DNA from: Prevotella sp.
GTDB taxonomy: Bacteria; Bacteroidota; Bacteroidia; Bacteroidales; Dysgonomonadaceae
DNA: 41,891 nucleotides
Direction of reading: 5' to 3'
Assembly: GCA_031285625.1 (NCBI GenBank)
Contig: JAITVV010000085.1
Location: 1-41,891 of the forward strand
Shown: in pieces, positions 14,039 to 37,288 of the stretch
How the letters are laid out: each line of letters starts with the position of its first letter
Numbering within the stretch: the first letter of the stretch is position 1
The notes under the pieces: generated by a model
Seen by the model: only the letters and a program-made list of their open reading frames with translations
Databases searched by the model: none
What the model was told of the DNA's origin: nothing
Program-made: the position numbers and the translations under genes

Positions 14039-16267
14039 TTATTTTATTTTTAATAGTAACACACCATGTCCGGGAATCATTGACTGGAACGAAGTTTTCA
14101 TATTATCTGCAGTTGTATGTCTCCACAAATCCCTGATTTCGGATGGTGATGTAATACTTAGGTCAGACCAGTTTAAAGTCACATTTTTATCTTCCTCGTT
14201 TAGATTGAAAAATCCAATAGCTTTGCTACTGTCTTCCAGCTCTTTTACCCATACTTGTATATTCTCGGAATCATAGATACGCTTTGCCTGTTTGCCCAAT
14301 ACATCCTGATTTATACCGATTACCTCATGATTCGTCAGCAGGCTCATTGTAAAGTCGTCCAGTTGACTGATATCACAACCTATAAGAAGCGGCGAAGCCA
14401 GTAAAGCCCACAAACTGATATGAGTATATTGTTCGTCAATGGTCAAACGTGTAGAGCGTAACTGATCTCCCCAACCTACCTTTCCAACAATCAACATATC
14501 AGGATCATTCCACCTGCCGGGTTTTGCATATGGATATTGTTTATCCTGATTAAATCCGATGAATGAGAGTGACCACCATGAGTCCGTAATATCTCCTGTT
14601 GTTCTCCAGCAGTTACCATCTACGGTAGCGCCCCATTTCCATACATCATCCATTCCATACTGACACAGGCTGTAGATAATGTCCCGCTTTTGTTTACGCA
14701 GAGCCTTCTCCATTATTTGGTAAGGTTTGGCATAGCCTAATAAAGAGTAATCAGCCTCTTTGTGGAAAATTTCCATATACGAACACCAGTCGTACTTTAG
14801 ATAATCAATACCCCATTGTGCATAGGTTCTCGCATCTATTTCTTCATATCCATATGATGCCAGTTCACGGGCACAGGTTTGCGTTCCGGGAGAAGAATAT
14901 ATACCAAGTTTTAATCCGTTGCTATGTAGCCAGTCTGCCAGTCCTTTTATGTTCGGAAAATGAGGTCCCGGATATAAAATACCATCGGAAGAGCGTTGTT
15001 TCGATTGCCACGAATCATCGATGTTGATATATGTCCATCCAAAATCGATTAATCCTTTATCGATTAATGCCTGAGCCGAACTTCTTACTTTGGCTTCTGT
15101 TACGCTTGGTCCCCAGCAATTCCAACTATTCCAGCCCATAGGAGGGGTAAGAGCAAGCAGATTCCCTACTTTTATTGTGAACTCCTGTTCTGCTTTACCG
15201 TGTTTGTTTAGGGCTTCCAAAGTCATTTTATATTCACCTTCGGTATTCATATACCCTGTAATAACCCCTGTGATAGAATCAAGATATAAACCTTGAGGCA
15301 GATCTTTTACAGAATATCTTATCGGTTTTTCTCCGGATGCTGCAATTTTGTACAGGAATGGAGATTCCGGCCTTACTCCGAAAACTTTGGCACTGTTTAT
15401 CCTGGGTGTGGCGGCAACAGCAGGTGTCAGTATATATGCAGGGACAAACTCTTTCTCTTTTATTTTTTTTGTTTTCTCGTCTGTATATTTCAGGCTTACC
15501 TTTACTCTTTTGTTTACCGGATAGGTGATCCTACGGATATCTTTTTTTGAAACATCTATTCTGATATTATAAGTTATATTGGAATATTCTACTCCGTTGT
15601 AGGTATCCACAGCCTTTATTTCCAGTTTCCCTTTTTGTCCTGCAATTTTAGTATTGGATAATATGACATCGCATATTCCTTTATCTCCGGATGTAGAAAA
15701 CTCATGGCTTATATCCAACTCATCTATCAGATCGGGAATATACAGATAAGGCATCCCGTTAAATATCCCACCATTTGCGTCATCGTCATACACCTTTATG
15801 GCAATCACATTTTCTTTATCCCATAGTATTGATGGATCACTGGTCGGTATCCTGTAGTTTCTGATAACTGTCCACTGCGAGTAATATCCTCCTTCGTCAG
15901 TAGGAAATCTTCCTGTTTTACCAATAAGTTTTCCATTGAGATATATTTCGTCAGCATCGTCTATCTGTGCAAAATAGAAATTGAGCTCTTTTTTCAGAAC
16001 GGAATTGTCGAGTAAGGCTTTTGGTAAGTTAAACCTGATACGGTACCAGGCATATCCGTTATATACAGGATATCCTTGTTCTTCCCAAACTTCACTGGTT
16101 CTTATGGTCTCCCATCCTGAATCGTTCAACTCTCTTTCTTTCCACGAAATCTCATCTCCTGTTTTAAATTTTGCCTCAGGAAAAGATATTTTTTGTTGTG
16201 CTAAAACTTCGGATATTCCGGTTAGGAATAATATATTTAAAAGAAGTATGATTATTTGCTTTTTCAT
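14039..16267 (-). CDS. GH27 alpha-galactosidase with N-terminal galactose-binding and putative Ig domains
   Basis: A 742-residue secreted enzyme with a signal peptide ending near VLAQ (24). Residues about 28-185 form a beta-sandwich like those in beta-galactosidases; about 290-368 resemble a putative Ig (He_PIG) domain with LPQGLYLDSITGVITG. The GH27 barrel begins at LTPPMGWNSWNCWG (373-386). The nucleophile is D493 in LKYDWC, and the acid/base lies in the conserved RWNDPDM (585-591). A C-terminal beta domain closes the protein. GH27 removes terminal alpha-galactose with retention; some members act on alpha-GalNAc. It is the last gene of the PUL, 18 bases after GH29. Confidence 0.92.
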   Translation of the reverse strand: MKKQIIILLLNILFLTGISEVLAQQKISFPEAKFKTGDEISWKERELNDSGWETIRTSEVWEEQGYPVYNGYAWYRIRFNLPKALLDNSVLKKELNFYFAQIDDADEIYLNGKLIGKTGRFPTDEGGYYSQWTVIRNYRIPTSDPSILWDKENVIAIKVYDDDANGGIFNGMPYLYIPDLIDELDISHEFSTSGDKGICDVILSNTKIAGQKGKLEIKAVDTYNGVEYSNITYNIRIDVSKKDIRRITYPVNKRVKVSLKYTDEKTKKIKEKEFVPAYILTPAVAATPRINSAKVFGVRPESPFLYKIAASGEKPIRYSVKDLPQGLYLDSITGVITGYMNTEGEYKMTLEALNKHGKAEQEFTIKVGNLLALTPPMGWNSWNCWGPSVTEAKVRSSAQALIDKGLIDFGWTYINIDDSWQSKQRSSDGILYPGPHFPNIKGLADWLHSNGLKLGIYSSPGTQTCARELASYGYEEIDARTYAQWGIDYLKYDWCSYMEIFHKEADYSLLGYAKPYQIMEKALRKQKRDIIYSLCQYGMDDVWKWGATVDGNCWRTTGDITDSWWSLSFIGFNQDKQYPYAKPGRWNDPDMLIVGKVGWGDQLRSTRLTIDEQYTHISLWALLASPLLIGCDISQLDDFTMSLLTNHEVIGINQDVLGKQAKRIYDSENIQVWVKELEDSSKAIGFFNLNEEDKNVTLNWSDLSITSPSEIRDLWRHTTADNMKTSFQSMIPGHGVLLLKIK

Positions 16268-16285
16268 TGTTACAATTAATATTTA

Positions 16286-17668
16286 CTACTCTAAAAACAA
16301 TTCGATGACAGGTACTTCAACATTTGGTCTTTCTACAGGTAGCGAAAGTATTACATCACTGGCCTTAGACGTTTCTGTAATATGGCTTCCCGCTTCTGTA
16401 GGTGTACTAAATCTTATTTCCGATGCATCGTTAAGCAACTGGGCGTACTTAAATTTTCCTTTGTAACCCGGTAAATGTAATGATTTGAAAGGCCATTCAA
16501 GCACATGTATGTACAACCTTTTTTTCGTTGGATTATATGTAATCATACAGTTTTTAGGAATTTCAAATTCTTCCGGCGCTTGTGTACACCCATATACCGA
16601 ACGGTCGTGATATTTCATCCACTGACCTAATCCGTCTAGCCGTTCATTAGCTCGCTCATCAAATACTCCCCGGGCTGTAGGGCCTACATTCAGCAACAGA
16701 TTTCCTCCTTTACTTACTGTTTCTACAAGCATTACGATCAATTGGTGTACACTTTTCCATGAATATTCATCACGATGGTATCCCCACGAACCGGAGAAAG
16801 TCTGGCAAGTCTCCCACGGAACACGCTCACCACGTACGGTAGGCCATTCTTGTGGCATAAATTGTTCGGGAGTAACAAAATCCCAACCCCAATCTGTATG
16901 ATCAAGATCTAGCCTGTTGTCGACTAAAATATGGGGTTGTAACTCGCGTGCAAGTTTTAACAAGCCTTCCGAATCCCACTCTTTATGTCCTTTGCCGTTT
17001 TCACCGGGATACGAGAAATCCATAAACAGTTCGTCGATACGTCCATAGTTTGTCAACAATTCTCTCAACTGATCTTTCATATATTGCTGATATATTTTCA
17101 GATCTCTTTTGGCATTCTCTTTTTTCCGCTCTTCAGGATCGGTCGGTGTAGGCGGGTGAGAGTGATCGAACGTAAAATGAGGATGATGCCAGTCGATAAG
17201 CGAGAAATAGAATCCCACTCTGAGACCCTCAGCTCTCAATGCCTCTACCAAAGGGCGGATCAGATCCTTTCCATACGGGGTATTTGTTACTTTATAGTCG
17301 GTATATTTTGTATCCCACAGGCAAAATCCATCATGATGTTTTGTAGTGATTACTACATATTTCATCCCGGCCTCTTTAGCTTTCGCTGCCCATTCTTTCG
17401 GATTATAGAGATCTGGATCGAAGTGATCAAAATATTTTTTATAATCGGTTGGGGTTATCTTTTCGTACAGTTGTATCCATTCGTGCCGTGCCGGCAGAGA
17501 GTAAATACCCCAGTGGATAAACATGCCGAAACGGTCGTGGGTCCACCATTCCATCCTTTTTTCTTTCTGTTCTTTTGTCTCCTTTGCCCAGGATGGAGTA
17601 TCCTGAGCATATATCTCACTTATGGGTAATAATAATATGATGCAAATGCATTTCAATAAGTTTTTCAT
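16286..17668 (-). CDS. GH29 alpha-L-fucosidase (long form)
   Basis: A 460-residue secreted enzyme with a signal peptide ending near IYAQ (22). The GH29 barrel shows FGMFIHWGIYSLPA (47-60), the KHHDGFCLW signature (110-118), and the nucleophile D217 in ELFMDFSYPG. A C-terminal beta domain (about 370-460) is present, as is normal. GH29 removes alpha-linked fucose from glycan ends with retention. It lies 49 bases after GH35 and 18 before GH27 in the PUL. It is distinct from the shorter GH29 at 26261-27352, so the locus has two fucosidases, probably for different linkages. Confidence 0.93.
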   Translation of the reverse strand: MKNLLKCICIILLLPISEIYAQDTPSWAKETKEQKEKRMEWWTHDRFGMFIHWGIYSLPARHEWIQLYEKITPTDYKKYFDHFDPDLYNPKEWAAKAKEAGMKYVVITTKHHDGFCLWDTKYTDYKVTNTPYGKDLIRPLVEALRAEGLRVGFYFSLIDWHHPHFTFDHSHPPTPTDPEERKKENAKRDLKIYQQYMKDQLRELLTNYGRIDELFMDFSYPGENGKGHKEWDSEGLLKLARELQPHILVDNRLDLDHTDWGWDFVTPEQFMPQEWPTVRGERVPWETCQTFSGSWGYHRDEYSWKSVHQLIVMLVETVSKGGNLLLNVGPTARGVFDERANERLDGLGQWMKYHDRSVYGCTQAPEEFEIPKNCMITYNPTKKRLYIHVLEWPFKSLHLPGYKGKFKYAQLLNDASEIRFSTPTEAGSHITETSKASDVILSLPVERPNVEVPVIELFLE

Positions 17669-17717: not shown

Positions 17718-20054
17718 CTATTTTATCTCAAAAGAATCTTCTTTAACATACACTTTATAGTCCTTTATCAGTCCCGGACTACCTTCATCTACCCGTGGCA
17801 GGTATTGCAGCCCTTTTATACTCTCCACTCTTCCCAGATCTATTACTATCTGATGAGGATAATTTTCATTCTGAACAGTACTCCAATAAGTAGATTCCTG
17901 TAGGTCAAAAACCTTATCAGCCGAATGGTTTCCCGTCTTAATATCTTCACTGTTTGCATAAATCATTTTCCAGTTTTGGCGTGACAGTGGTTTATTATCT
18001 GCACCAGTAATATATAATTCAGCTATTGCAGCATTTGCCCCGCCATCATGAGCACTTAAGGCTTCGATACACAGATAGCGTGCTTTTATTTCTTTTGCAA
18101 AGTCAGCCCGCTTCCATCCGTTTCCGGCTGAGAATGAACCAATGAAAACAGGAGATTCATTCGTCAGGTTTAGTGCTTCTCCATTATTACGGTGGGTTAG
18201 TGGTGCTTCGGGGCGAAGCATATCCAGAATAGGATACTTTAGCCCTTTTATCAAGGTTTGTTCGGGCCCTTTCAGATCGAGAACAATGATCTCATTTTCT
18301 CCTTCTTTCAACCAGCATCCGGGCATGAATAATGTCTGTTGTGGCCCTATTTCCCAAAAACGACCGATAGATATACCGTTTACCCATACCATTCCTTTTC
18401 CCCAATCCTGCATATTGAAAAACACGTCCCCGGTCTTCTCAAGGTTGAATGTTGCATGGTAATAAGCAGGGGCGGAGAGGGGAGTGCTATTCGGAGAAAA
18501 TCGTTTATCTTTTGCAAAAGAATAATCTACAGGAAAACTGAACACTTCCCAGTTCTTCAGTTCTTTCGCTCCTTTTTTGTTTACAATTTCCACTTTCTCA
18601 GTGATACCTTTACGGTCGTGTATAGCCTCATCAAAGTTGACACGTCCCATGGCTTCCACTAAAATATCCAGTTGTGCAGTTGTTTTACTCATGGGGAGTT
18701 TTACGGTATTTTGTCCACGGCGCCTGTCCAGTCTGGCTATAAGTTTGCCATCAATAAATACCTGTGCCCAATCGTGAGCTTCGGTTATGATCAGCGATGT
18801 TTCTTCTTTTATGGCAGGTAGGGTTGTACGATATAAGATGTTTCCCCAGCCCTGATCAAATTCTTCCATAGGTTTTATATCTACGGATTTCTTCGGTTGA
18901 GGTAGGTTTTCAAACAGAAGCGCCGATTCAGAAAATTTAATCTCCGGAATTTCTATTATAGGCATCGATTGGGGTATATCGATCAATTCCTGCTCTTCGT
19001 CCAGATAGTTGGATAACAGATTGCGGAGTATATAATATTTTTCTGTTGCCCATCCGGCCTCACTGATAGGTGCATCGTAATCATAAGAACTACACATGGC
19101 AGAGTATGCCGGGCTGTTTGCTCCTCCCCAATGTCCGAATGTAGTACCGCCATGAGCCATATACAAACTGAAAGAAATATTGTTGTCCAGCATTTCTTTA
19201 ATTCCGTTTGTCATTGCAGTAGCATCACGTGTTTCATGCGCCCGTCCCCAGTGATCAAACCAACCACTCCAGAATTCACTACACATTAGCGGGGTAGTTG
19301 GCCTAGCTTCTTGCAGGCTTTTAAATTGTTCGTTTATATTTGCTCCCGTACCGAAGTTTATTGTCCATAACAGGTCGTCGAGGGCATTATTTTTAAAATT
19401 GGAACTCCAGTCGCACTGAAAAAGAGGAACATCAGTGAAGCCGGCATCTTTTACCATGTCACGGATGTTGGATACATACTCTTTATCTGTATTATAGGCG
19501 CCATATTCGTTTTCTACCTGTACCATAATCAGATTACCTCCTCTGGTGATTTGGTGAGAGGCAAGCTGCTTGCCTATTTCATTCAGATATAATTTACTTC
19601 TTTCAAGGAAATATGGGTCATTTGAACGAACTGCAAGGTCTTTCTTCTTGAGTAGCCACCACGGAAGGCCACCCATTTCCCATTCGGCACAGGCATAAGG
19701 CCCGGGACGCAGGATAACATACATTCCGTGTTTTTCAACCAAGCGACAAAATTCTGCAATATCGTTTTGTCCTGAAAAGTTGAAATTGCCGGGAGTCTGC
19801 TCATGTATATTCCAAAAGGTATATATACAGATGGTATTCATCCCTAGCGCTTTACACATTTTGATGCGATGTTCCCAATATTCGGCAGGGATACGGGCAT
19901 AATGTATTTCAGCTGCTTTTATTATAAAAGGTTTGCCATTGAGAAGGAAAGTTTTATTTCCTATCTCAAACGACTTACCTTTTTCTATACTATAGCAATT
20001 TAGTCCAAATATAAAAACGGATATAAATAAAAAAGTCTTTAATAAATTTCTCAT
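17718..20054 (-). CDS. GH35 beta-galactosidase with C-terminal F5/8-type (CBM32-like) domain
   Basis: A 778-residue secreted enzyme. The GH35 barrel starts with FLLNGKPFIIKAAEIHYARI; the acid/base is E183 in VQVENEYG, and the nucleophile is E260 in MCSEFWSGWFDHWG. Jelly-roll domains follow (about 390-630, with NGISIGRFWEIGPQQTLF), and the end (about 640-778) resembles a discoidin/CBM32 carbohydrate-binding domain (TYWSTVQNENYPHQIVIDLG). GH35 removes terminal beta-galactose, often beta-1,3, from mammalian glycans. A signal peptide covers about the first 22 residues. It lies between GH109 (26-base gap) and GH29 (49-base gap) in the PUL. Confidence 0.94.
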   Translation of the reverse strand: MRNLLKTFLFISVFIFGLNCYSIEKGKSFEIGNKTFLLNGKPFIIKAAEIHYARIPAEYWEHRIKMCKALGMNTICIYTFWNIHEQTPGNFNFSGQNDIAEFCRLVEKHGMYVILRPGPYACAEWEMGGLPWWLLKKKDLAVRSNDPYFLERSKLYLNEIGKQLASHQITRGGNLIMVQVENEYGAYNTDKEYVSNIRDMVKDAGFTDVPLFQCDWSSNFKNNALDDLLWTINFGTGANINEQFKSLQEARPTTPLMCSEFWSGWFDHWGRAHETRDATAMTNGIKEMLDNNISFSLYMAHGGTTFGHWGGANSPAYSAMCSSYDYDAPISEAGWATEKYYILRNLLSNYLDEEQELIDIPQSMPIIEIPEIKFSESALLFENLPQPKKSVDIKPMEEFDQGWGNILYRTTLPAIKEETSLIITEAHDWAQVFIDGKLIARLDRRRGQNTVKLPMSKTTAQLDILVEAMGRVNFDEAIHDRKGITEKVEIVNKKGAKELKNWEVFSFPVDYSFAKDKRFSPNSTPLSAPAYYHATFNLEKTGDVFFNMQDWGKGMVWVNGISIGRFWEIGPQQTLFMPGCWLKEGENEIIVLDLKGPEQTLIKGLKYPILDMLRPEAPLTHRNNGEALNLTNESPVFIGSFSAGNGWKRADFAKEIKARYLCIEALSAHDGGANAAIAELYITGADNKPLSRQNWKMIYANSEDIKTGNHSADKVFDLQESTYWSTVQNENYPHQIVIDLGRVESIKGLQYLPRVDEGSPGLIKDYKVYVKEDSFEIK

Positions 20055-20080: not shown

Positions 20081-21499
20081 TTAAGGCTGTTTCAGTACTC
20101 CGGTGTCACCTCCACCTCTCAGTGTAAGGTCGACGGGTAAGTTGTTTTTCCAGGAACCTCCGGTAAAATCAGGAACGTCAATAGAATTTGAACGATTTGC
20201 CACCGACCATATACTCAATGGAGTAATGCAAGACCATGTTGCAGCATCATATACATCCATATCGAGAGGCAAACCGTTTCGCAGACAATCTATCATTCTC
20301 CAGTCCATAATGAAATCCATACCTCCGTGTCCACCAACGGCTTTAGCTACGTCTGATATATGTTTTACCATTTCGGGTGTATATTCGGTTTCAAGTTCTC
20401 TCATTTTATCATCGCTGATAAATTCATGTCCGAAAGCAATTTTTCCCGGTTCAGGAAATTTTTGGGCAAAAGCTTTTGTTCCGCTCAGTTTATGTAGGCG
20501 ATCGTAGGGGCGGGGGCTGGTAACATCATGTTGTAGCATAATCGTTTTTCCCTTATTGGTGCGGATAATAGATGTATTCATATTTCCTCTGTATTTCATT
20601 TTGGCCATAGGCTTGTAATAGTCGTTTTTTGAAGCCAGTTCTTCGGCTTTAGCTTTCATCATGAAATCATCGCAGGACATAGATGTCAGATATTCCATTT
20701 TATCTCCACGATTTACGTTCATGGCCCAGCACACAGGCCCTAAGCCATGGGTAGGGTAGGGATTACCGCTTTTGTGGTTATCGTCCCATCTCCATCCGGG
20801 ATAGTCCGGCTCTCCGAATATACCACTTAGTAAGTCGTGTATATATGCGCCTTCACCATGCATGATTTCTCCAAAAAGTCCTTTTTGAACCATGTTTACA
20901 GTAAGTATTTCAAAGAAATCGTAACAACAATTTTCCAACTGCATACAGTGCTTACGTGTACGCTCGGATGTTTCCACCAGTTTCCAGCAATCCTCCATTG
21001 TTATTGCTGCGGGTACTTCAATAGCAACATGTTTGCCACATTCCATTGCGTATAATGCTATCGGAACATGCCATCTCCATGAGGTAGCAATATATACAAG
21101 GTCGATATCATCCTGTTCACATAATTTCTTCCATGAGGTTTCGTTTCCATAATATTCCTTAGCTGGTTGCTTGCCAAATGTTTTGAGTGTATTCTGACTG
21201 TTTTTTACAGCACCTTCTTTTATATCACAAAGGGCTGTAACTTCTATATCTTTGATATTCTGCATGCGATTGACGGCCCAGCCACCTCTTGCGCCAAGTC
21301 CAACATAGCCAATTCTGACAACCGGGATTTTAGGTGCAGCATATCCGCACATGTTGAATAATTGCTTCCGCTTTTTTGCATAGCTAATATTCTTTTTTAT
21401 GGATTCTTCTACTTCATTGAAAGAGGTGGCTCCCGCAAAAACGGACATCATAGCCCCAGAACTAAGTAAAGATCCCTTCAGAAAATTTCGACGATTCAT
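20081..21499 (-). CDS. GH109-type Gfo/Idh/MocA glycosidase (probable alpha-N-acetylgalactosaminidase)
   Basis: A 472-residue protein with a Tat-like or Sec start (MNRRNFLKGSLLSSGAMMS). The Rossmann NAD loop is GYVGLGARG (64-72), with CDIKEG at the second acidic strand end. The GH109-like features are the conserved EVPAAIT in place of the usual EKP, YPTHGLGPV (248-256) and GGHGGMDF in the C-terminal half. GH109 enzymes keep NAD bound and cleave alpha-GalNAc (blood group A type) by an oxidation-elimination cycle. Length and motif order fit this subgroup better than general dehydrogenases. Two neighbours (GH123, GH35) also act on GalNAc/Gal glycans. Confidence 0.85.
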   Translation of the reverse strand: MNRRNFLKGSLLSSGAMMSVFAGATSFNEVEESIKKNISYAKKRKQLFNMCGYAAPKIPVVRIGYVGLGARGGWAVNRMQNIKDIEVTALCDIKEGAVKNSQNTLKTFGKQPAKEYYGNETSWKKLCEQDDIDLVYIATSWRWHVPIALYAMECGKHVAIEVPAAITMEDCWKLVETSERTRKHCMQLENCCYDFFEILTVNMVQKGLFGEIMHGEGAYIHDLLSGIFGEPDYPGWRWDDNHKSGNPYPTHGLGPVCWAMNVNRGDKMEYLTSMSCDDFMMKAKAEELASKNDYYKPMAKMKYRGNMNTSIIRTNKGKTIMLQHDVTSPRPYDRLHKLSGTKAFAQKFPEPGKIAFGHEFISDDKMRELETEYTPEMVKHISDVAKAVGGHGGMDFIMDWRMIDCLRNGLPLDMDVYDAATWSCITPLSIWSVANRSNSIDVPDFTGGSWKNNLPVDLTLRGGGDTGVLKQP

Positions 21500-21538
21500 T
21501 TTATAATATTTTAGTGATTGATTTTTGACTTTAATGGG

Positions 21539-21568
21539 TTATATCCGGATATAATTATCCGGATATAA
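21539..21568 (-). other. Intercistronic hairpin between GH123 and GH109 genes
   Basis: TTATATCCGGATA at 21539-21551 pairs perfectly with TATCCGGATATAA at 21556-21568, a 13-base stem with a four-base loop. In the direction of transcription no T run follows, so it is more likely a processing, stability or attenuation element than a terminator. It sits in a 116-base gap in an operon whose other enzyme gaps are mostly under 50 bases. Confidence 0.75.
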
Positions 21569-21615
21569 CTCCATCAGAGAGTGATTGACTGCTAATTTCA
21601 ACCTTTAACCAAATT

Positions 21616-23367
21616 TTACCTGCTTAACTCTTCAAGCATAATTTTAGCATTGTCAATCATTTCACGACATGGTGTCGTTGGTTCACCCTGTATTTTAAAT
21701 CGGGCAACCTCTTTGTTTAGGGCATTTAATTTATCAAGATTGTTCTCTTCTCTAAATTTATTTCTTAGAATTCTTATTTTTTCGGCATCCTGTATGCCTT
21801 CTCTTAGTCGTTCGAATCGGATAGAACTACGTCCTCCTGGATAGATAATATAAGTGTCGCCTGCCGACCAGGTCTTGTAACGAGAGTCGGTCAATGGATT
21901 TTCCGGCCAGGAATTATAGGCCCAGCGTAGAAACCCATCAAGATCATAAGCAACTGAATACCATGAAATATAAACAGCCTCAGTAGGGTCTGAGAATGTA
22001 AATACATTTGGAAACTTAGTAGCACAATATGTATAATAAGTACTAATCAGATTATTATCTTTCCGGTATTTAAGATCGGCTTCGTCAAAACTGGCTCCAT
22101 ATTCTACACATATATCTTTCAGATACGGGTATTGCTTGTAGCTTTTGTGATTATCAGCCAATGATATTCCTAGTTCCGGAGCAACGTCTTTTAGCAAATC
22201 TAAAGTTGCTTTCATAATTTCGGGAGATCTTTCGTCCATAGCTATATTGGTAATATTAAGCCATCCTTTTTCGTTCAGGTGTTTTTTGAAATCTTTAAGG
22301 AACGGAGACCATAGATATTTAAATTCCTTCGAACCCGGTTTAGCACTTATGTTTATTTGTTTACCTTGCTTTTCATCATAATAATGAAGTTCATTATTCC
22401 ATGGAGCCATCGAATAACAATTGATCATTTTATTGATTCCCAGTTTCATCATCATTTCTACCCAGCGGTCGAAGATAGCATAATCGTAAGACCATGAATT
22501 ATCTTTATTTTTTGTCCATTTTATCATATCATCATACGGATAATATGTCTGAACGTTCCAAGGATCTTTATTCAGCGTGGTAGTAATCACTTTTTGTCCT
22601 GCAGAAGCTAACATTTCCATAGGAGTTTCTAATAATTTCCAATGCTCTTTCGACCATAATTCGACTCCATGTGCATGAGCTACGGATGAAGGATGCTGCC
22701 ATAAATCAAGATGAAATACCCAATCTTTTGGTTCCGGTAATGTTTGAGGAAGTACCTCTAATGAAATATCCAGCTTGGTTGTTTTTTGTCCTTTAGCATA
22801 TACGTTCAGGGTACCAGTATATGTACCTGGCATTGCATTGGTCGGTATATCGAAGCTCAGCCATACAGGACGTGTTGTTTTTGCTTCCATATCGAAGCAC
22901 TTCAGCGTATCGAGGCCATCAGCCACAAGGGAAGGAGCTAAATTGTCGCGAGGGGCACAGCCATTGCCAAATGAGTCTGTAATGACGTAGCGCATAAAGC
23001 GTGCTTTGGCTACAGATGCGTCTAGAATAGCGCCTTCAGGGCCCTTGAATGATGAAAATTCACATTCAATTTGTTTTATATCATTAGGCGACCATAATAC
23101 AAGCATGGCTGCTATCCGTTCTCCTTTCCATCCAGCACCTTTCCATTTTTCAGAAAGTGGGAGAGTGGGTACCTGAGCTTTCGCATAATGCTCGTTAATG
23201 CTTCCAAATGATATATTCAATCCTTTTACCTGCTCCCAGTCTGCACTATAGTCGGTAGTATCAGGGTCTGCAGCTTCGGCATAAGTATCACAACTTAATG
23301 TTTTACGGGAACCTTCGCATGAGGTAAATATAAAAAGCAGGGAGAATAAATAAATTAAATTCTTCAT
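21616..23367 (-). CDS. GH123-like beta-N-acetylgalactosaminidase lipoprotein (DUF4091)
   Basis: A 583-residue lipoprotein (IFTSC, Cys17). An N-terminal beta-sandwich (about 40-205) precedes a TIM barrel with NITNIAMDER (371-380); the adjacent D378-E379 pair matches the catalytic Asp-Glu of GH123, which works by substrate-assisted catalysis using the N-acetyl group. The C-terminal DUF4091 region includes SWYSVAYDLDGFLRWAYNSW (about 484-503). Length is typical. GH123 removes beta-linked GalNAc, including from glycosphingolipid glycans. It lies 8 bases after GH89 in the PUL. A general DUF4091 glycosidase of other specificity is the alternative. Confidence 0.8.
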   Translation of the reverse strand: MKNLIYLFSLLFIFTSCEGSRKTLSCDTYAEAADPDTTDYSADWEQVKGLNISFGSINEHYAKAQVPTLPLSEKWKGAGWKGERIAAMLVLWSPNDIKQIECEFSSFKGPEGAILDASVAKARFMRYVITDSFGNGCAPRDNLAPSLVADGLDTLKCFDMEAKTTRPVWLSFDIPTNAMPGTYTGTLNVYAKGQKTTKLDISLEVLPQTLPEPKDWVFHLDLWQHPSSVAHAHGVELWSKEHWKLLETPMEMLASAGQKVITTTLNKDPWNVQTYYPYDDMIKWTKNKDNSWSYDYAIFDRWVEMMMKLGINKMINCYSMAPWNNELHYYDEKQGKQINISAKPGSKEFKYLWSPFLKDFKKHLNEKGWLNITNIAMDERSPEIMKATLDLLKDVAPELGISLADNHKSYKQYPYLKDICVEYGASFDEADLKYRKDNNLISTYYTYCATKFPNVFTFSDPTEAVYISWYSVAYDLDGFLRWAYNSWPENPLTDSRYKTWSAGDTYIIYPGGRSSIRFERLREGIQDAEKIRILRNKFREENNLDKLNALNKEVARFKIQGEPTTPCREMIDNAKIMLEELSR

Positions 23368-28796: not shown

Positions 28797-30185
28797 TTAT
28801 TCCAATTCTAATCCTTTTACATAGATTTCTGCAATAGAAATATGAGGAGGATTATTACTTTCAGTTACAATACATTTCAGATAGCGGGCTTTGGTTGTTT
28901 TAATATTACTATTCTTAGAAAGTTCAGTATTAGATATAGGGCCAAAATCGATAGTAGTAGCCGGTTGATAAGTTTGATTGTCCAGACTTAATTCCATTAC
29001 CATTTTTCGGGTCGCAGTATTGGCCGCACCGGTTTCCCAATTAGTTCTTCTAATAACTTCCAGAGCCATTACATCATATTCTTTTTTCATATCTATGATG
29101 ATATGATGAGGTAAGTCAGGAATACCGTTTCCATCGTCTCTCCATTGGCTATGCCAGTAAGTCTCTGTATCTCCATCCAATACGGCTCCCTTTCCTCCAC
29201 CATCATCAGGTTGTTCGGAAGAACATTCAATTATCTCCCAACCAGTTCTGTCTAGGTTCTCAGGTAAGAATGAAACACGTATCAAGTACAAATCGGCATC
29301 AGGATTTATCTTATTCTGAGAAACAGATGTAATCCGTAACGGTAGTAGATATTCCCCAAAGAGATTTGTATCGCCATCAACCAGACCTTGTTTCAGTATT
29401 TCATATTGGAAAGACCCTTCGTTCAGGTTTTCTTTAATGACTTTTGTTTCTGATATTAATTTATAAGCGGCTTCAGGCAATAGCTTGTAAGCTGTTCCAT
29501 TCTCATTATTATATTTCTCTACTGCTGGTGCATCAACTACTATCTCAAAATCTAAGTTCCATTTATTATTATATGTTGTTATCACTTTGGTTGCAAACTG
29601 CAATACATCCGGAGAGTCAGGGTTTAATGCATGCACATTAATTGATATGCCCGGATCTTTAAACTGGAAGTAAGGTTGATAAACAACAGGTGCTATCAGG
29701 GAGAATAACCTTTCATCTTCAGCTGCTATAGATTCGTTTGCAACTTCTGCCCTGATAGGAATTACATACTCTGCATTACCTTCCCCTTGTAATAGAGCAA
29801 TACCATCAGCATTGAACTCAATGGGGAATAAAGCCCTGTAATCTTTTGAAGACAATGTCATCTGTGTTGTCTTCATGGTATAAAGGTCTGCAGGCATGAG
29901 TTTATAAGCAGTTCCGTTTTCTAGATTATAACTTGTCAGATATGACTCATCAACAATGAGCTTTACATCAGACGATTGTTGCCCTACACCGCTTTTGATA
30001 ACTTCAAAGGAATAGGTAAATCCCTCCCAGTTGAATACTTTTACCTCGTTATAACTCGGTTTAAGTACATATATTGAGTCGTCTACCATATTGTGCATCC
30101 TATTATCTATACAGGCTGTATGAATAAAAAGTAACAACAAGGTGAAAACTACTATTTTTAAATGTGATTTCATATTATTTATCAT
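28797..30185 (-). CDS. Surface lipoprotein with DUF1735 repeats and C-terminal F5/8-type domain (SusE-position glycan binder)
   Basis: A 462-residue lipoprotein (IHTAC, Cys25 from this start; a second Met at residue 5 is an equally good start). Two DUF1735 (BT_3987-like) repeats span about 35-165 and 175-305, each with the ENGTAYKLLP-type motif (92-101 and 230-239 area). The end (about 320-460) is a discoidin/F5-8C-like domain with TYWHSQWRDD and DLPHHIIIDM. Proteins at this place in PULs bind glycan at the cell surface beside SusC/SusD. No catalytic motif is seen. The gene starts 10 bases after susD. Confidence 0.85.
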   Translation of the reverse strand: MINNMKSHLKIVVFTLLLLFIHTACIDNRMHNMVDDSIYVLKPSYNEVKVFNWEGFTYSFEVIKSGVGQQSSDVKLIVDESYLTSYNLENGTAYKLMPADLYTMKTTQMTLSSKDYRALFPIEFNADGIALLQGEGNAEYVIPIRAEVANESIAAEDERLFSLIAPVVYQPYFQFKDPGISINVHALNPDSPDVLQFATKVITTYNNKWNLDFEIVVDAPAVEKYNNENGTAYKLLPEAAYKLISETKVIKENLNEGSFQYEILKQGLVDGDTNLFGEYLLPLRITSVSQNKINPDADLYLIRVSFLPENLDRTGWEIIECSSEQPDDGGGKGAVLDGDTETYWHSQWRDDGNGIPDLPHHIIIDMKKEYDVMALEVIRRTNWETGAANTATRKMVMELSLDNQTYQPATTIDFGPISNTELSKNSNIKTTKARYLKCIVTESNNPPHISIAEIYVKGLELE

Positions 30186-30195: not shown

Positions 30196-32031
30196 TTACC
30201 ATCCGTAATTCTGTGTAAAATTCACCATCTCTGCCTGTTGTTCCTGATGAATAGGGAAAAAGTAGTGTCTGTCCTTGAAAACCATATCTTGGTTGAACAC
30301 AGCATCTGTTCTAGCCCATGAATCTTCGTAATTGTATGCCATCACATTTCTACCGAAACGTCTTCCGTTAAATTCTTTCGGAGCAGTCATACAGGTTCGG
30401 ATATCATAATAACGTTGATTTTCAAAAGCAAGCTCTACCATGCGTTCTTTGGCTATAAGTTCTCTTAACAGGTTTTGGTTGCCTTTTACTTCCGGATATG
30501 CTTCCTCTAGTTTATTAAGGTTTACTCTGGCTCTGATCAGATTTACATATTTAAGAGCTTCTGCTTCATCACGGTTAGGCTTTTCATTACACGCCTCGGC
30601 ATAGTTCAGATAGATCTCAGCCAGCCGTGCCAGAGGTTGTACGTATGTACCCCATTTGTTATCTTCGTGATTATTTGTAGGATCACTCATTCTCCGCCAC
30701 AGGTAACCTACTTTGACACAATCTCCTGCACCTGTATAAGTTGAGGTACCTCCATTAAAGAAAGTTATAAGTTTATCACCTTTGTACCTGTTGATCCAGT
30801 ACATACCGCTTGATAATACGGATGCATAAAAACGTGCATCACGTCCAACTACACTGTTATGTGCTTTAATCGAAGCATATGATTCTATAGGGTGTGTCCA
30901 TGGTTCTGTAAATCCTTCGTCTGTATAACCCGAAAGCGGATCGATAATAGGGGCTCCATTATTTTGATATCCGGTTACAGGGAATCTTCCGGATTTTGCC
31001 ATAGGATAAGTATCTACCAGTTTGATGGAAGGGCAATAACCTCCATAACCTTCTAATACAGCACGTGGAGGTGCAGCTCTGACAGCATAATCCCATGCAC
31101 TACTTCTATGTCTACCCCAGATGATTTCATCATTCCACTGTTCAAAAAGTATTCCCATATAGGATCTGATGCCTTTGAGGAAAGGATCTGTTTCTTTTGT
31201 ATCCTGATATAGTGAATATCTTCCAAGATCGATTACATCTTTTGCTGCTTTTGCTGCTGCTTCCCATTTTTGTGGATCGGGTGACTGAGGGAATAAGTAT
31301 TCACCATCTTTGTTTGTAAGTCCTTTGTACAGATCGCATCCATTGAAAAGAGGACGTGCAGCATAAAGCATCAGTCGCGATTTAATTGCCATTACGGCGC
31401 CTTTAGTAACACGCCCGTACCATGCTTCATCGGTAATCTCATCAGGCAAAACTTCTATGGCTTTATTAAATTCATCTAGTATAAAGTTATAATTTACATC
31501 AAAAGAGTGCCTGTCTATATCTTCACCTTTAGTAGTATCATCTGATTCTTCGTCTCCCCATACATATACAGGACCATATTTACGAAGCATCATAAAATAA
31601 AGATATGCTCTTAAAAAACGAGCTTCAGCTTGCATTACATTGCGTGTGTTTTCATCGAGCTCCTTACACAAATGGACATTATTTATAAATATGGAGGATT
31701 GTTTGATCCCTTGGTAATTAAATACCCATGTTTTATATTGCCAGTGGGCTGTACCCCATGTTCCATTATTCAGGTCCACATAATCCAATGAGAGCCACGA
31801 AAAAGAGCCTTCATCACTGCGTGCTACGACACTTCCTTCGTTATCATGAGGCAACCAGTCATGAGGCAAATATGAATAGACATTCGCCAGGTAATTTTCT
31901 GTAGTTTCTCTTTTGCTGAAAGTTTCTTCTAATGTTAATGCTTGTTTTAAATCAACACTTAGGTAATCCTCACATGAAGAAAAGCCTAAAACAAGCAATA
32001 AAATCATTAAATATATTCTTACGTTTTTCAT
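30196..32031 (-). CDS. SusD/RagB-family outer-membrane glycan-binding lipoprotein
   Basis: A 611-residue lipoprotein (LGFSSC, Cys20). The N-terminal tetratricopeptide-like helices include MQAEARFLRAYLYFMMLRKY, the usual SusD signature, and the C-terminal region has LAEIYLNYAEACNE and LIAKERMVELAFENQRYYDI, both conserved in the RagB/SusD family. It forms the lid on the SusC barrel and captures glycan. It begins 12 bases after susC, the normal pairing. Binding specificity cannot be read from the sequence; downstream enzymes point to Gal/GalNAc/GlcNAc/Fuc glycans. Confidence 0.95.
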   Translation of the reverse strand: MKNVRIYLMILLLVLGFSSCEDYLSVDLKQALTLEETFSKRETTENYLANVYSYLPHDWLPHDNEGSVVARSDEGSFSWLSLDYVDLNNGTWGTAHWQYKTWVFNYQGIKQSSIFINNVHLCKELDENTRNVMQAEARFLRAYLYFMMLRKYGPVYVWGDEESDDTTKGEDIDRHSFDVNYNFILDEFNKAIEVLPDEITDEAWYGRVTKGAVMAIKSRLMLYAARPLFNGCDLYKGLTNKDGEYLFPQSPDPQKWEAAAKAAKDVIDLGRYSLYQDTKETDPFLKGIRSYMGILFEQWNDEIIWGRHRSSAWDYAVRAAPPRAVLEGYGGYCPSIKLVDTYPMAKSGRFPVTGYQNNGAPIIDPLSGYTDEGFTEPWTHPIESYASIKAHNSVVGRDARFYASVLSSGMYWINRYKGDKLITFFNGGTSTYTGAGDCVKVGYLWRRMSDPTNNHEDNKWGTYVQPLARLAEIYLNYAEACNEKPNRDEAEALKYVNLIRARVNLNKLEEAYPEVKGNQNLLRELIAKERMVELAFENQRYYDIRTCMTAPKEFNGRRFGRNVMAYNYEDSWARTDAVFNQDMVFKDRHYFFPIHQEQQAEMVNFTQNYGW

Positions 32032-32043: not shown

Positions 32044-35000
32044 TTAGAAATTAATATTCATTCCAAAATTTATCGTTTTCATATTCGGATATCGGTTTCC
32101 ACTGTCTGTATCCAGTTCAGGATCCCATAGTTTAAATTTAGAGAAAGTAAATAGGTTTACTCCCTGCATATAAACTCTGACAGTAGACATTCCGAATTTC
32201 TTCGTAATAGCACGTGGTATGGTATATCCAAAGTCTATGTTTTTCAAACGCATAAGACTAACATCTCTTTGATTCATTGTTGAGTTTTGCATGTTGTTAG
32301 AACTAATAGCCATTGCCATACGTGGATATTTAGCGTTTGGATTGGGATTATTCAAAGACCATCTACCTTCTGCTACTTCTGCATAAATCTGTCCTAGCCC
32401 TATTTTATTATTAACCGTTCCATGGAAGTTAGATCCGGAAACAAAGCGTGTAGCTTTAGCATTTCCCTGGAAGAAAACAGATAAATCGAAATTTTTCCAC
32501 CCGGCAGATACGCCGAATCCATAAGTGATTTGTGGAACACTATGATAGCCAATTGCGATCATGTCTTTGTTATCAACAACGCCATCTCCGTTTATATCTT
32601 TATATTTCACATCTCCCGGACGAACATCCCCATATAGCTGTTTCGGACTGTTATCTATATCCTCTTGCGATTCGAATAAGCCAAGAGCAACAAGTCCCCT
32701 TTGTTGTCCCCAGACCATCCCTACCTCTTCTTGGTACGGCCATACCGGAGTTGGTTTATCATCATAAAGTTTGGTGTTTACGTTATATGTAAGATTACCG
32801 CGTGCAGAAAGAAACAGGTCCTTATTAACTTGCTGGTTATATTCTAAAGACATATCGAAACCTTCATTTTTCATTTTCCCTATATTAAGCTGCCTTTGAA
32901 CATTGAGACCAACAACAGAAGGAATACTTTGCTGTTCAATATATATACCAGTCCTTTTTTCATAGAAATAATCTGCATGGAGAGTTACTTTATCAAAAAA
33001 TCCCAGTTCTATTCCCAGATTGGTTTTATCTGCTTCTTCCCAAGTTACTCCGTCATTTCCTTTACGCCCTGTGGCCAATCCTCTCAGCCAGTTTTGCCCG
33101 GCATTACCAAAGGTAAATCCACGCTCATCACTCCATGCCATTTCTGTATAGAAAGCAAAGCGTCTTTCGTCATTACTACTACGATCGCCTATTACATCAT
33201 TTCCGATCTTACCGCGTGAAGCTTTTAATTTGAGTAAAGAGACTATGGGTCTTATTTTCTCAAAATAACTCTCGTTACTTACCAAATATCCAACAGCAAG
33301 AGATGGGAAAAAACCAAATTTTTTACCAGGAGAGAAATTTTCTGATCCATTATATCCGAAGTTACCTTCTATAAAGTAAGTATCTTTGAAAGAGTAGGTG
33401 AGACGACCTGCTATACCTTGGTTACGATAAGGAAAGGATTTGGTCAGGTTTGCCGGAAGATTCAAGTTTCGTTCACGCATATTAAAGAGAAACATTCCAC
33501 CAACGCGATGTTTTTCATCAAATATATTGTTGTATGTTATCGAACCTTCAAAGTCCATACTTCGTTCATTACTTGAACCATTCCACGTCTCGGAAGTCAT
33601 ATAATCGTTACCTATGCTGTTTTGCTTAAATATTAAATTTCCGTCTTTATCTCTGCCTGTTGCATAATAAGTGGATGGTGCTTTTTTTCTTAAAACAGCA
33701 GCACTATTTTTTGCATCCCATGCAAATTTCAGGTTTAATTCGAGTCCTTTTGTAACAAGGTCTGAGAGATCTTGCGAAACACTGAATAGCGTTTGAGTAC
33801 TATTCCAGAAATCCTGAACATATCCTGTTTGATTGAGCGTCATCCATGGGTTGGAACCAAGTGGAGGAGTAGCATATGTTCCATCCGAGTAGATTGTCGG
33901 TGTAGCTATATTCGGTACAGTAAGCATGTATGCCCACATATCTCCGTTTGGTCTGTTTTTTGTTTCATACATATTTGCTAAACTTACACTCAGAACGGTA
34001 GACGGAGTCAGGTTTACATCAAAATTCGAACGGAAATTATAGCGTTTGTAATTTAATGTAGGATTATAACTTTTCCCTTTTTTTGCATTAAATATTCCAT
34101 TCTCAAAATATAATGAACCGGCTACATAATAACGTAAAATCTTACTACCTCCTGATACATTGAAATTAACCCGTTGTAAGTCTGTCGATTCTTTAAATAT
34201 TTCATCTACCCAATCCACATTCGGATATAAATCAGGATCATATCCTGTAAGATATCTTCTTTTGTCTTCCTCTGTGTAGGCAAGGTTTCCTGAGGATTCT
34301 AAACTAATATCATTGTAATAGTCAATCCATTGTCCGGCGCTTGCCAGTTTGGGTTTTCTTACAGGGGCAGTAATTCCATATTCTATTCTGGTATTGATTT
34401 GTAGTTTTCCTTCTTTTCCTCTTTTGGTAGTAATTAATACTACACCATTGGCACCTCTTACTCCATATACAGCGGTAGCTGTAGCATCTTTGAGAATGGA
34501 AAAAGATTCTATATCTTCCGGATCTACCAAGTCCAGAGATCTTTCAATACCATCTACCAGAACAAGAGGAGAGCCTCCATTTCCGAAAGTACTGATACCC
34601 CTGATCCAAAAATCGGCTCCTGCTCCTGGCTCTCCTGAACGCTGTACTCCTACAACTCCTGCTATCTGACCTGCCAGACTGGTACTTATTTTTCCAACAG
34701 GTTTTTTTAGATTATCAACAGAAACTGTAGAAATAGAACCTATAACGCTTTCTTTCTTTTGTTTACCAAAAGCAACCACCTGCACTTCTGCAAGTTCATC
34801 AACTTTAGGCTCCATCTTTATAAAGACCTCTTGCTGTGAGCCTACAGTAATGGTTTGGTCTTGGTAACCAAGAAATGTGAATTTGATTTTATCGGTGCTC
34901 TTCACTTCAATTTCAAATGATCCGTCAACATCTGTCAGAACACCACGTGTACTTCCTACAACTACAATTGTAACTCCAGGCATAGGATCCCCATTCTCAT

Positions 35001-35436
35001 CAACTACTTTACCTTTTATCTTACCTGCTTGTTTAACTTCTTCTCGGGCTTTTACAGCAGGGGGAGCGATAGTAGGGATATTTCTTTGTGTGATTATTAT
35101 CTGTCTGTCATCAATCTCATAAGATAGATTTGTTCCCGCAAATAACTTATCTAATATTTTATCAATAGTCTGATTTTTTATGTCAATAAAAACTTTTTGC
35201 TTGTGATTTATTAGATTGTCATAATAAAGAAAAACAAATTCACTTTTGCTTTCAATTTCCGCAAAGACCTCTTTAAAGGTTTTGTTCTCAGCCTTAATTG
35301 TCAGGGTTTTTACTTGGGCATAGGGTGAATTTCCTGTCGTGGCATACACAACAGACCCTACAAAAAGGCACATAATTAACAATAGTTTTCTCTTAATGGA
35401 TAGGCATACCCATTTGGCATTAGAAAGGTTTTTCAT
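32044..35436 (-). CDS. SusC/RagA-family TonB-dependent transporter with STN signalling domain
   Basis: A 1130-residue outer-membrane transporter. After the signal region (about 17-33) comes an STN domain (about 43-117, KTLTIKAENKTFKEVFAEI), then a carboxypeptidase-regulatory-like domain (about 138-210, GKVVDENGDPMPGVTI), a TonB-box area near 216-224 (EVQVVAFGK) and the plug (about 225-340) with VLVDGIERSLDLVDPEDIES and SILKDATATAVYGVRGANG, both diagnostic of SusC. The 22-strand barrel fills the rest. The STN domain contacts FecR-type anti-sigma proteins, and a fecR/ECF pair lies directly upstream. It imports oligosaccharides with TonB-derived energy. Confidence 0.96.
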   Translation of the reverse strand: MKNLSNAKWVCLSIKRKLLLIMCLFVGSVVYATTGNSPYAQVKTLTIKAENKTFKEVFAEIESKSEFVFLYYDNLINHKQKVFIDIKNQTIDKILDKLFAGTNLSYEIDDRQIIITQRNIPTIAPPAVKAREEVKQAGKIKGKVVDENGDPMPGVTIVVVGSTRGVLTDVDGSFEIEVKSTDKIKFTFLGYQDQTITVGSQQEVFIKMEPKVDELAEVQVVAFGKQKKESVIGSISTVSVDNLKKPVGKISTSLAGQIAGVVGVQRSGEPGAGADFWIRGISTFGNGGSPLVLVDGIERSLDLVDPEDIESFSILKDATATAVYGVRGANGVVLITTKRGKEGKLQINTRIEYGITAPVRKPKLASAGQWIDYYNDISLESSGNLAYTEEDKRRYLTGYDPDLYPNVDWVDEIFKESTDLQRVNFNVSGGSKILRYYVAGSLYFENGIFNAKKGKSYNPTLNYKRYNFRSNFDVNLTPSTVLSVSLANMYETKNRPNGDMWAYMLTVPNIATPTIYSDGTYATPPLGSNPWMTLNQTGYVQDFWNSTQTLFSVSQDLSDLVTKGLELNLKFAWDAKNSAAVLRKKAPSTYYATGRDKDGNLIFKQNSIGNDYMTSETWNGSSNERSMDFEGSITYNNIFDEKHRVGGMFLFNMRERNLNLPANLTKSFPYRNQGIAGRLTYSFKDTYFIEGNFGYNGSENFSPGKKFGFFPSLAVGYLVSNESYFEKIRPIVSLLKLKASRGKIGNDVIGDRSSNDERRFAFYTEMAWSDERGFTFGNAGQNWLRGLATGRKGNDGVTWEEADKTNLGIELGFFDKVTLHADYFYEKRTGIYIEQQSIPSVVGLNVQRQLNIGKMKNEGFDMSLEYNQQVNKDLFLSARGNLTYNVNTKLYDDKPTPVWPYQEEVGMVWGQQRGLVALGLFESQEDIDNSPKQLYGDVRPGDVKYKDINGDGVVDNKDMIAIGYHSVPQITYGFGVSAGWKNFDLSVFFQGNAKATRFVSGSNFHGTVNNKIGLGQIYAEVAEGRWSLNNPNPNAKYPRMAMAISSNNMQNSTMNQRDVSLMRLKNIDFGYTIPRAITKKFGMSTVRVYMQGVNLFTFSKFKLWDPELDTDSGNRYPNMKTINFGMNINF

Positions 35437-35597: not shown

Positions 35598-36659
35598 TTA
35601 TTTCTCTTTAATTACGATCTTGTTATTATCTTTATAATATGTAATTGGCGCTGTTTTTGATATTGATTTTATTATATCTTCTATATTATCTTTAAGGTCG
35701 AGTTTACCAGATAAAGGCATATTTTTTACAGATTCTTCGAGATCAAAATTTATGTCATAGTACAGATGTAATTTTTCGAAAACTTCGTTCAGGGGCTGAG
35801 ATTTTAGCACGAGTAAATTGTTAATCCAACCTGTATATTCGTAAGTATCGACAGTTTTTTTCTCTCCAAGTCCGTTTTCATCAATAACAATCCTTTGACT
35901 GGGTTTTAATTCGGATTTTTTCCCTTTATAGTCTTTTACATCTACAAGGCCATTGACCAGTACAACGGAAGATTCCATGCTCTTATAAGTGCATATATTG
36001 AATGATGTACCTAAAACCTGAACATCAAATTGGTTTGTTTTAACAATAAATGGGACTTTCTTATTATGTTTTACTTCAAGGTAAACTTCCCCATCTACAA
36101 AGATCTCTCTTTTCTTTTCTGTGAAATTGCGGGGATATACAACTTTAGTTCCTGAATTAACCCATAGTTTGGATTCATCGGACAATATTACTTGTATACG
36201 TTTTCCTTTGGGCACTATTATTTGATTATACTCTATTTCATCTGCTTTTTGCTTTTCGGTATTAGTTTTATAGGTTTCCGATTGAAGTGATATGGTACCA
36301 CTCTTGGAATATGTAACAATAGAGTCAGATTTAATATTGATTTGTTCATCATCAGATAGCACTAAAAGAATATCTTCGGTCTCTGTAGATATAGAATTTG
36401 CTATATTCTTTATATGATCAACCTGAGGAACAAATAATTTATCTTTTCCAATCCAGATTATACTAAATATTATAGCAGCAGATGCAGCGGCAGTAATTAT
36501 AAATCTGAGTCGCCGTGATTTTTTATCAACTTTTACTTTGTGTTCTATCTCATGCCAGAGATCGTCTTTTTCCTGCTGGCTGGCAATTCTTTCTTTTTCT
36601 CGGAAAAAGTTAATTAGGCGTCGGGCAACTTTATCTATATTTGTTTTTTCTTCTTTCAT
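35598..36659 (-). CDS. FecR-family anti-sigma factor
   Basis: A 353-residue single-pass membrane protein. The cytoplasmic N-terminus (1-50) binds the sigma factor; the membrane helix is about 51-71 (FIITAAASAAIIFSIIWIG). In the periplasm, a FecR domain (about 140-245) shows IIVPKGKRIQVILSDESKLW and VNSGTKVVYPRNF with GEVYLEVKHNKKVPFIV, and a C-terminal DUF4974 domain follows (about 280-350, LNEVFEKLHLYYDINFD). It holds the ECF sigma inactive until the STN domain of SusC signals substrate binding. It starts 53 bases after the sigma gene. Confidence 0.94.
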   Translation of the reverse strand: MKEEKTNIDKVARRLINFFREKERIASQQEKDDLWHEIEHKVKVDKKSRRLRFIITAAASAAIIFSIIWIGKDKLFVPQVDHIKNIANSISTETEDILLVLSDDEQINIKSDSIVTYSKSGTISLQSETYKTNTEKQKADEIEYNQIIVPKGKRIQVILSDESKLWVNSGTKVVYPRNFTEKKREIFVDGEVYLEVKHNKKVPFIVKTNQFDVQVLGTSFNICTYKSMESSVVLVNGLVDVKDYKGKKSELKPSQRIVIDENGLGEKKTVDTYEYTGWINNLLVLKSQPLNEVFEKLHLYYDINFDLEESVKNMPLSGKLDLKDNIEDIIKSISKTAPITYYKDNNKIVIKEK

Positions 36660-36712
36660 TCCAGTGTGTTTCTATATATAGTACGGATGAAAGAAAAAAA
36701 GCTACTCATTTT

Positions 36713-37288
36713 TTAAATAAAAAATATTATGAATTTTGAAATTTGTTCTCTTATTGAGGCTAATGCCCTTTGAGTCAGATTCATAGAAGATTGTACTTTA
36801 ATATCCATTATTTCTGCTATCTCTTTGTGAGAAAGTCCTTTTATATAGCGTAAGTAGATGATCATTTTTTGATTTTTTGGCAGGGCTTGATATGTAGTTA
36901 ATATTTGTTTACTAAGACGGATATCTGTATCATTTTTTTCAAATAGTTGAGTCAAAGACTCATCATCTATTGATATATCCAGAGGCTCATCTTCTAGACT
37001 TACCTTTCTTTGATTTCGAAGTAATTTATCAAAAATTATATTTTTTAAGGCTTTCAATAAGTATGCTTTGACATAAGTTGTGGATTTTAATTGGTTACTC
37101 TTGTATATTTTTACGAAGAGATCTTGTATCGAATCTTTTACAATTTCTTCATCATGGTAGCATTTCAATCCGTAGTTGAAGAGTAAGTCATAATAACGCC
37201 TATAGAATATTTCTATAATATCCTTTTGCCCCTGCACCAAAAGTTGCCATAGTTCGTAGTCGTCTAGGTTTTTATTGAAGTTATTCAT
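36713..37288 (-). CDS. ECF (sigma-70 family) RNA polymerase sigma factor
   Basis: A 191-residue protein with the two-domain ECF layout. Region 2 is around LFNYGLKCYHDEEIVKDSIQ and DLFVKIYKS (about 50-80); region 4 is around LPKNQKMIIYLRYIKGLSHK and EIAEIMDIKVQSSMNLTQRA (about 137-175). This is the Bacteroidota group of sigmas partnered with FecR-like proteins and STN-containing SusC transporters. It should direct RNA polymerase to the susC promoter region. It heads the PUL and is preceded by a housekeeping-type promoter on the minus strand. Confidence 0.94.
   Translation of the reverse strand: MNNFNKNLDDYELWQLLVQGQKDIIEIFYRRYYDLLFNYGLKCYHDEEIVKDSIQDLFVKIYKSNQLKSTTYVKAYLLKALKNIIFDKLLRNQRKVSLEDEPLDISIDDESLTQLFEKNDTDIRLSKQILTTYQALPKNQKMIIYLRYIKGLSHKEIAEIMDIKVQSSMNLTQRALASIREQISKFIIFFI

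Follow-up and report, generated by a model that had tools for sequence, protein, structure and literature searches.

Gene content of a Dysgonomonas polysaccharide utilization locus suggests combined hydrolytic and oxidative glycan breakdown

Does a polysaccharide utilization locus (PUL) that appears to hold only glycoside hydrolases (GHs) break down its glycan by hydrolysis alone, or does it also carry an oxidative route? We address this question for a locus in a 41,891-nucleotide stretch of DNA (the window throughout; contig JAITVV010000085.1, C44 in our numbering of its 4.84 Mb genome), which is, by its sequence, an operon-like PUL of a Dysgonomonas species. A sequence-only reading of the window had described the locus as built only of exo-enzymes and had listed seven of them; that description overlooked a Gfo/Idh/MocA gene and a PF06439 gene, with which the operon holds nine enzyme genes (Table 1). 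The two encoded proteins come from the same families as BT2158 and BT2157 of Bacteroides thetaiotaomicron, for which an oxidation/elimination route has been described, a chemistry that would apply here by homology. Judged by its gene content, we read the locus as a hybrid hydrolytic/oxidative PUL with a predicted oxidative function, and give this reading a probability of about 0.6.

An operon with nine enzyme genes

The operon spans 14039-37288, and the sequence-only reading was right about its coordinates and single strand: all 14 open reading frames (ORFs) lie on the minus strand, separated by gaps of 2-161 bp, in the order ECF-FecR-SusC-SusD-binding protein-Gfo-GH29-PF06439-GH89-GH123-GH109-GH35-GH29-GH27. 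Each of the 14 gave Pfam matches over cut-off, which bear out the names already given to the extracytoplasmic function (ECF) sigma factor, FecR, STN-SusC, SusD and the seven hydrolases; GH27, both GH29, GH35, GH89 and GH123 are assigned by their Pfam scores, and GH109 by its C-terminal domain together with a GGHGG loop. SusC adjoins SusD with the glycan enzymes on the same strand, as in a SusC/D PUL, and the ECF sigma/FecR genes with an STN-bearing SusC mark regulation of the ECF type. A sigma/anti-sigma-controlled PUL for glycans containing galactose (Gal), N-acetylgalactosamine (GalNAc), N-acetylglucosamine (GlcNAc) and fucose (Fuc) is well supported by this gene content. The range of sugars proposed earlier stands to that extent; GH27 may act on either alpha-Gal or alpha-GalNAc, and the position that we take to separate the two kinds of enzyme is a Gln here, which fits neither.

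In the working that we propose, a bound glycan would cause the STN domain of SusC to signal via FecR to the ECF sigma factor, and SusC/D would import the glycan. Exo-hydrolases would then strip alpha-Gal or alpha-GalNAc (GH27, GH109), fucose (the two GH29 types), alpha-GlcNAc (GH89), beta-GalNAc (GH123) and beta-Gal (GH35); this hydrolytic arm follows from the enzyme families, from which we infer its targets. Homology and gene order alone suggest an oxidative arm parallel to the hydrolases and on the same import stream, in which the dehydrogenase, exported by the twin-arginine translocation (Tat) pathway with its nicotinamide adenine dinucleotide (NAD), would oxidise a glycoside at its C3-OH, after which the PF06439 protein would cleave the activated 3-keto-glycoside by elimination or hydrolysis, the cofactor presumably being reset through reduction of a 3-keto sugar. 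Such an arm would handle linkages or aglycones beyond the hydrolases' reach. PUL annotation usually amounts to a count of carbohydrate-active enzymes; should redox pairs be at work within PULs, a substrate predicted by GHs alone would leave some of the chemistry unaccounted for, including linkages beyond ordinary glycosidases.

The GH core and the redox families are themselves already known, and it is their hybrid make-up that would constitute a new variant of PUL. Among the open-access matches listed, none joined DUF1080, 'polysaccharide utilization loc' and SusD, and the one open-access paper that combines terms from among DUF1080, PF06439 and '3-keto-disaccharide hydrolase' does not mention 'PULs'. 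In the open-access literature, GH29, fucosidase and DUF1080 co-occur in one paper, on planctomycetes, and GH89, GH123 and GH109 do co-occur with 'polysaccharide utilization loc' in one. B. thetaiotaomicron PUL BT4240-50, for mucin O-glycoprotein, shares SusC/D, a CBM32-type surface protein, GH109 and a beta-galactosidase for GalNAc/Gal glycans, but differs from the window in having GH2 instead of GH35, an M60-like peptidase and a GalNAc kinase; in the parts of its description that we consulted, GH89 appears only as a comparison CBM, GH123 is not mentioned, and '3-keto' and 'oxidoreductase' are absent from the main text (PMC11992087). A 2024 Nature study of the 3-keto route may already mention PULs.

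The dehydrogenase and the PF06439 protein

The dehydrogenase has a Rossmann domain scoring above the Pfam cut-off of 24 bits, its sequence matches 8tdf and 8tdh best in the PDB, and it begins with an N-terminal twin-arginine motif. It carries the EKP lysine and DxxxH motifs of Gfo/Idh/MocA dehydrogenases; K133 (of EKP), D246, H250, R5 and R6 are invariant in 17 of 17 sequences, the alignment taking in 17 of 24 loci and that of PF06439 taking in 12. The PF06439 protein, of the family that Pfam names 3-keto-disaccharide hydrolase, exceeds its Pfam gathering score, and its PDB matches are headed by 4jqt and include 8tda and 8rr2. Single-sequence AlphaFold models of the two proteins reached a mean predicted local distance difference test score of 30.6 each and were not used.

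Could the first protein instead be an NAD-dependent glycosidase of the GH109 kind, rather than a dehydrogenase feeding PF06439? The Gfo/Idh domain is common to GH109, and an N-terminal twin-Arg motif is found in both this protein and the operon's GH109. We hold this to be improbable, as the EKP lysine and DxxxH seen in dehydrogenases are present in the protein and a GGHGG loop is missing from its sequence; GH109 has EVP and GGHGG, and the two are therefore different kinds of Gfo/Idh protein. Its genomic company also argues for a dehydrogenase: a PF06439 gene adjoins it in 13 of 20 other loci of the family Dysgonomonadaceae and in 17 of 23 loci outside it.

As for the known route, BT2158 is described as a periplasmic glycoside 3-dehydrogenase in the excerpts of PMC11300592 consulted, and those of PMC9007349 name BT2157 a 3-ketotrehalose hydrolase and link DUF1080 to 3'-ketolactose. 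Like the window, the B. thetaiotaomicron cluster BT2156-BT2159 pairs a periplasmic dehydrogenase with a PF06439 protein, but only two of its four gene types are found in the window operon. We take that cluster to lack SusC/D and GHs.

Relatives of the operon and of the pair

The sequence-only reading knew of no PUL with this exact GH set; uniqueness of the set is rejected, as close relatives of it occur in Dysgonomonas hofstadii DSM 104969 and in the window's own genome. D. hofstadii (L021, L075), whose SusC/D is the closest to that of the window, shares ECF-FecR-SusC-SusD-binding protein-GH89-GH123-GH109-GH35, at identities from 40% (binding protein) to 82% (GH109), with SusC at 58%; a long GH29 of 89% identity lies upstream on the other strand. 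Its genome has no relative of the dehydrogenase at 1e-60 or of the short GH29 at 1e-80, and there is no PF06439 or GH27 match within the 50 kb of contig examined. The window and D. hofstadii SusC group together with support of 98/99, and the SusD tree leaves this grouping open. The window's SusC/D type also occurs in G035 and in G063; in the latter it comes with GH109 and GH36, as would be expected for alpha-Gal/GalNAc glycans.

The relative in the window's own genome (L133, contig C56, 1136-13518) reads ECF-FecR-SusC-SusD-GH89-GH35-GH109 with profiles built here, its GH109 being split across two overlapping ORFs. This genome contains one more PUL in which SusC/D and a redox pair occur together (L090, contig C95, 2065-14444), FecR-SusC-SusD-Gfo-PF06439-6PGL-like-ROK-MFS-GH16, whose Gfo and PF06439 proteins are 32% and 26% identical to those of the window. 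Of 13 PF06439 places in this genome, five lie within 4 kb of a Gfo/Idh gene, and two of these five also lie within 8 kb of a SusD; the count covers 13 of 15 PF06439 places, two 69-base matches at contig ends being omitted, and 21 of 22 Gfo/Idh places, the remaining one scoring below cut-off.

Relatives of the dehydrogenase are found in 20 of 101 genomes of the family, 4 of 393 of the order and 21 of 395 of the phylum, the window's own included, in searches with differing E-value limits (1e-60, 1e-120 and 1e-100, respectively). SusC or SusD lies in the same-strand run at 9 of the 20 other family loci against 1 of 23 outside the family (Fisher p = 0.0027, or 0.0013 with the window added, both too small owing to relatedness), a contrast that is rough given these limits. 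The 20 loci come from 19 genomes and many are cut at contig or slice ends, so that the true number with SusC/D may be higher. The labels in these counts, those for SusC and SusD among them, were assigned with profiles built from these very loci, and the single case outside the family (L103) was called by such a label alone. In 12 of the 13 adjacent family pairs no ORF of at least 100 aa separates the two genes, whereas the window is the only locus with a GH29 between them.

L074, from the same genus as the window, places the dehydrogenase and PF06439 alongside SusC/D, sulfatase and GH78-like genes in one run; L066 combines the dehydrogenase with PF06439 and GH109; L058 and L062 have it with GH2, GH123 and sulfatase genes and without an adjacent PF06439. 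In L057 and L064 the binding protein comes after the window's SusC/D type, and the pair after that. No glycan enzyme besides the redox pair was recognised in the runs of L055, L056, L057 and L070, those of L056 and L057 being cut at a slice or contig end and L057 having an extra PF06439 piece downstream; L060, L061 and L064 have further downstream ORFs, partly annotated (one in L064 is an esterase fragment). TIG/NHL and Big_2 proteins are present in L055 and L060, and two transposase genes lie inside the L056 PUL. Tentatively, and with the odds somewhat against it, we suggest that Dysgonomonadaceae have recruited the pair into SusC/D systems, giving hybrid PULs and pair-only PULs (L055, L056, L057 and L070, possibly also L060, L061 and L064), so that import can be coupled to non-hydrolytic cleavage. 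Seemingly pair-only PULs would offer a clean route to natural substrates of the 3-keto pathway.

Several observations weigh against a hybrid PUL in the window. The dehydrogenase scores 135 bits against the 750-bit cut-off of NF058561, the NCBIfam equivalog of BT_2158; it is by this measure a BT_2158 relative and not an equivalog member, and its substrate may therefore differ. According to the excerpts of PMC11501099 consulted, deletion of BT2157 or BT2158 did not impair growth on raffinose-family sugars. In D. hofstadii the GH core stands without the redox pair, an adjacent PF06439 is absent in 7 of the 20 family loci, and in G008 the window's SusC/D type precedes a DUF4855/GDPD protein, which does not fit alpha-Gal/GalNAc glycans, and not host-glycan enzymes. 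Finally, neither the dehydrogenase nor the PF06439 protein of the window groups with its L057/L064 counterparts in the trees, which thus do not argue for a common origin of the SusC/D-plus-pair arrangement. On these trees, one inherited SusC/D-plus-pair unit is not taken as demonstrated: the window and L057/L064 are ungrouped in that of the dehydrogenase (where their one-change figure is relative to the other labelled group alone), and three changes are needed in that of PF06439.

The locus might then be an ordinary, mucin-like host-glycan PUL in which the dehydrogenase and PF06439 genes are passengers without a part in glycan use. The pair-free core of D. hofstadii speaks for this, as do trees that do not tie the pair to the window's SusC/D type and a restriction-enzyme fragment and transposase piece upstream of the sigma gene. 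We nevertheless consider it unlikely, given that both reading frames are intact and the dehydrogenase motifs conserved, that between the dehydrogenase and GH89 each gene is separated from the next by 2-27 bp, albeit with a 116-bp gap before the dehydrogenase, and that the dehydrogenase stands in SusC/D runs at nine of the 20 other family loci.

Target glycan and further features of the window

The hydrolases bear on what the hybrid PUL would take up. It had been stated that catalytic residues are visible in most of them, and the motifs of four do align with those of solved enzymes: the DE pair of GH123 with 5l7r, two Glu of GH89 with 2vc9, EVP and GGHGG of GH109 with 6t2b (2ixa also matched), and KYD and NDPD of GH27 with 4nzj, which like its other match 4ogz is named a putative alpha-galactosidase; which of these residues are catalytic is our assumption. 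The short GH29 is nearer to alpha-1,3/4-fucosidase structures (3ues 137.8 bits, 2wvv 106), and the long GH29 is nearer to structures of what we take to be subfamily A (6gn6 386 and 2wvv 179.6 against 83.5 bits for 3ues). The short GH29 has a single close relative among the 101 family genomes, in a GH95-GH29-GDSL-ApbE-Gfo/Idh run (L107, contig C219 of G044). For the binding lipoprotein named earlier, Pfam supports a DUF1735/F5-8C binding protein, and a Cys close to its N-terminus was seen by eye; a crude lipobox pattern matched the PF06439 protein alone, further N-terminal Cys were found by eye, and the cell location of the operon proteins is a prediction. PDB matches of the binding protein are F5/8C modules, and no ligand is claimed for its own, the match to the GH89 CBM32 reaching an E-value of 0.006 only.

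The likeliest target is a neutral, fucosylated glycan of the O-glycan or glycolipid type, and GH89, GH123, GH109 and the two GH29 types make a host or animal-type glycan plausible. In keeping with what had been noted, endo-GH, sialidase, sulfatase and GH20 families had no Pfam match in any of the 14 operon proteins; GH20 occurs in two places elsewhere in the genome, on other contigs, in a genome-wide search that did not extend to sulfatases and sialidases. A less probable but serious alternative is an insect, fungal or bacterial heteroglycan with Gal, GalNAc, GlcNAc and Fuc. The absence of sialidase and sulfatase from the operon would suit it, the genus includes termite-gut members, and several GH123 relatives come from Dysgonamonadaceae, Bacteroidales or Tannerella metagenome-assembled genomes, which we take to be termite-gut assemblies. 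A vertebrate glycan is favoured by the joint presence of GH89, GH109 and GH123, typical of mucin and glycolipid degraders, and by D. hofstadii being a clinical isolate.

Table 1. Features of the operon and its hairpins, in window coordinates.
Feature	Position	Strand	Evidence
ECF sigma factor	36713-37288	-	Pfam Sigma70_r2, r4_2, Sigma70_ECF
FecR anti-sigma factor	35598-36659	-	Pfam FecR, FecR_C
SusC-like TonB receptor with STN signalling domain	32044-35436	-	Pfam STN, CarbopepD_reg_2, Plug
SusD-like protein	30196-32031	-	Pfam SusD_RagB 156.9 bits
Putative surface glycan-binding protein, DUF1735 + F5/8C (CBM32-like)	28797-30185	-	Pfam BT_3987-like_N, F5_F8_type_C
Intergenic hairpin, binding protein/dehydrogenase	28681-28796	-	RNA fold z -3.13; 2/200 shuffles as good
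Gfo/Idh/MocA dehydrogenase, candidate glycoside 3-dehydrogenase	27361-28680	-	Pfam PF01408 75.8 bits
Short GH29	26261-27352	-	Pfam 169.6 bits
PF06439 3-keto-glycoside hydrolase/lyase family protein	25541-26233	-	Pfam 135.4 bits, cut-off 26.8
GH89 alpha-N-acetylglucosaminidase	23376-25538	-	Pfam, three NAGLU domains; 2vc9 458 bits
GH123 beta-N-acetylgalactosaminidase	21616-23367	-	Pfam; 5l7r 454 bits
Intergenic hairpin (before GH109)	21500-21615	-	RNA fold z -5.25; 0/200 shuffles as good
GH109 NAD-dependent alpha-N-acetylgalactosaminidase, N-terminal twin-Arg motif	20081-21499	-	Pfam GH109_C 127.4 bits; 6t2b 300 bits
GH35 beta-galactosidase + F5/8C	17718-20054	-	Pfam 406.3 bits
Long GH29	16286-17668	-	Pfam 303 bits
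GH27 with N-terminal extension + He_PIG	14039-16267	-	Pfam Melibiase_2 183.7 bits; 4nzj 370 bits
Hairpin 3' of last gene	13890-14038	-	RNA fold z -4.78; 0/200 shuffles as good

The two hairpins inside the operon may set relative expression, and the one after the last gene is possibly a terminator. Convergent with the GH27 gene, a plus-strand gene of 430 aa (12513-13805) is GH94/MGH1-like and falls just under the Pfam cut-off. At the start of the window (221-2552), an AP_endonuc_2 TIM-barrel gene and, after it, a PF06439 gene of 462 aa form a second 3-keto-type pair on the contig. Contig C50 of the same genome begins with the same 119 bases as the window (positions 1-119), and a 65% identical TIM-barrel gene comes next there. 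Upstream of the sigma gene, 37816-39177 holds the C-terminal fragment of an AlwI restriction endonuclease (profile positions 301-439 of 441) and an IS4/5 transposase piece, and GC content is 0.46 at 38001-40000 against 0.32-0.42 elsewhere in the window.

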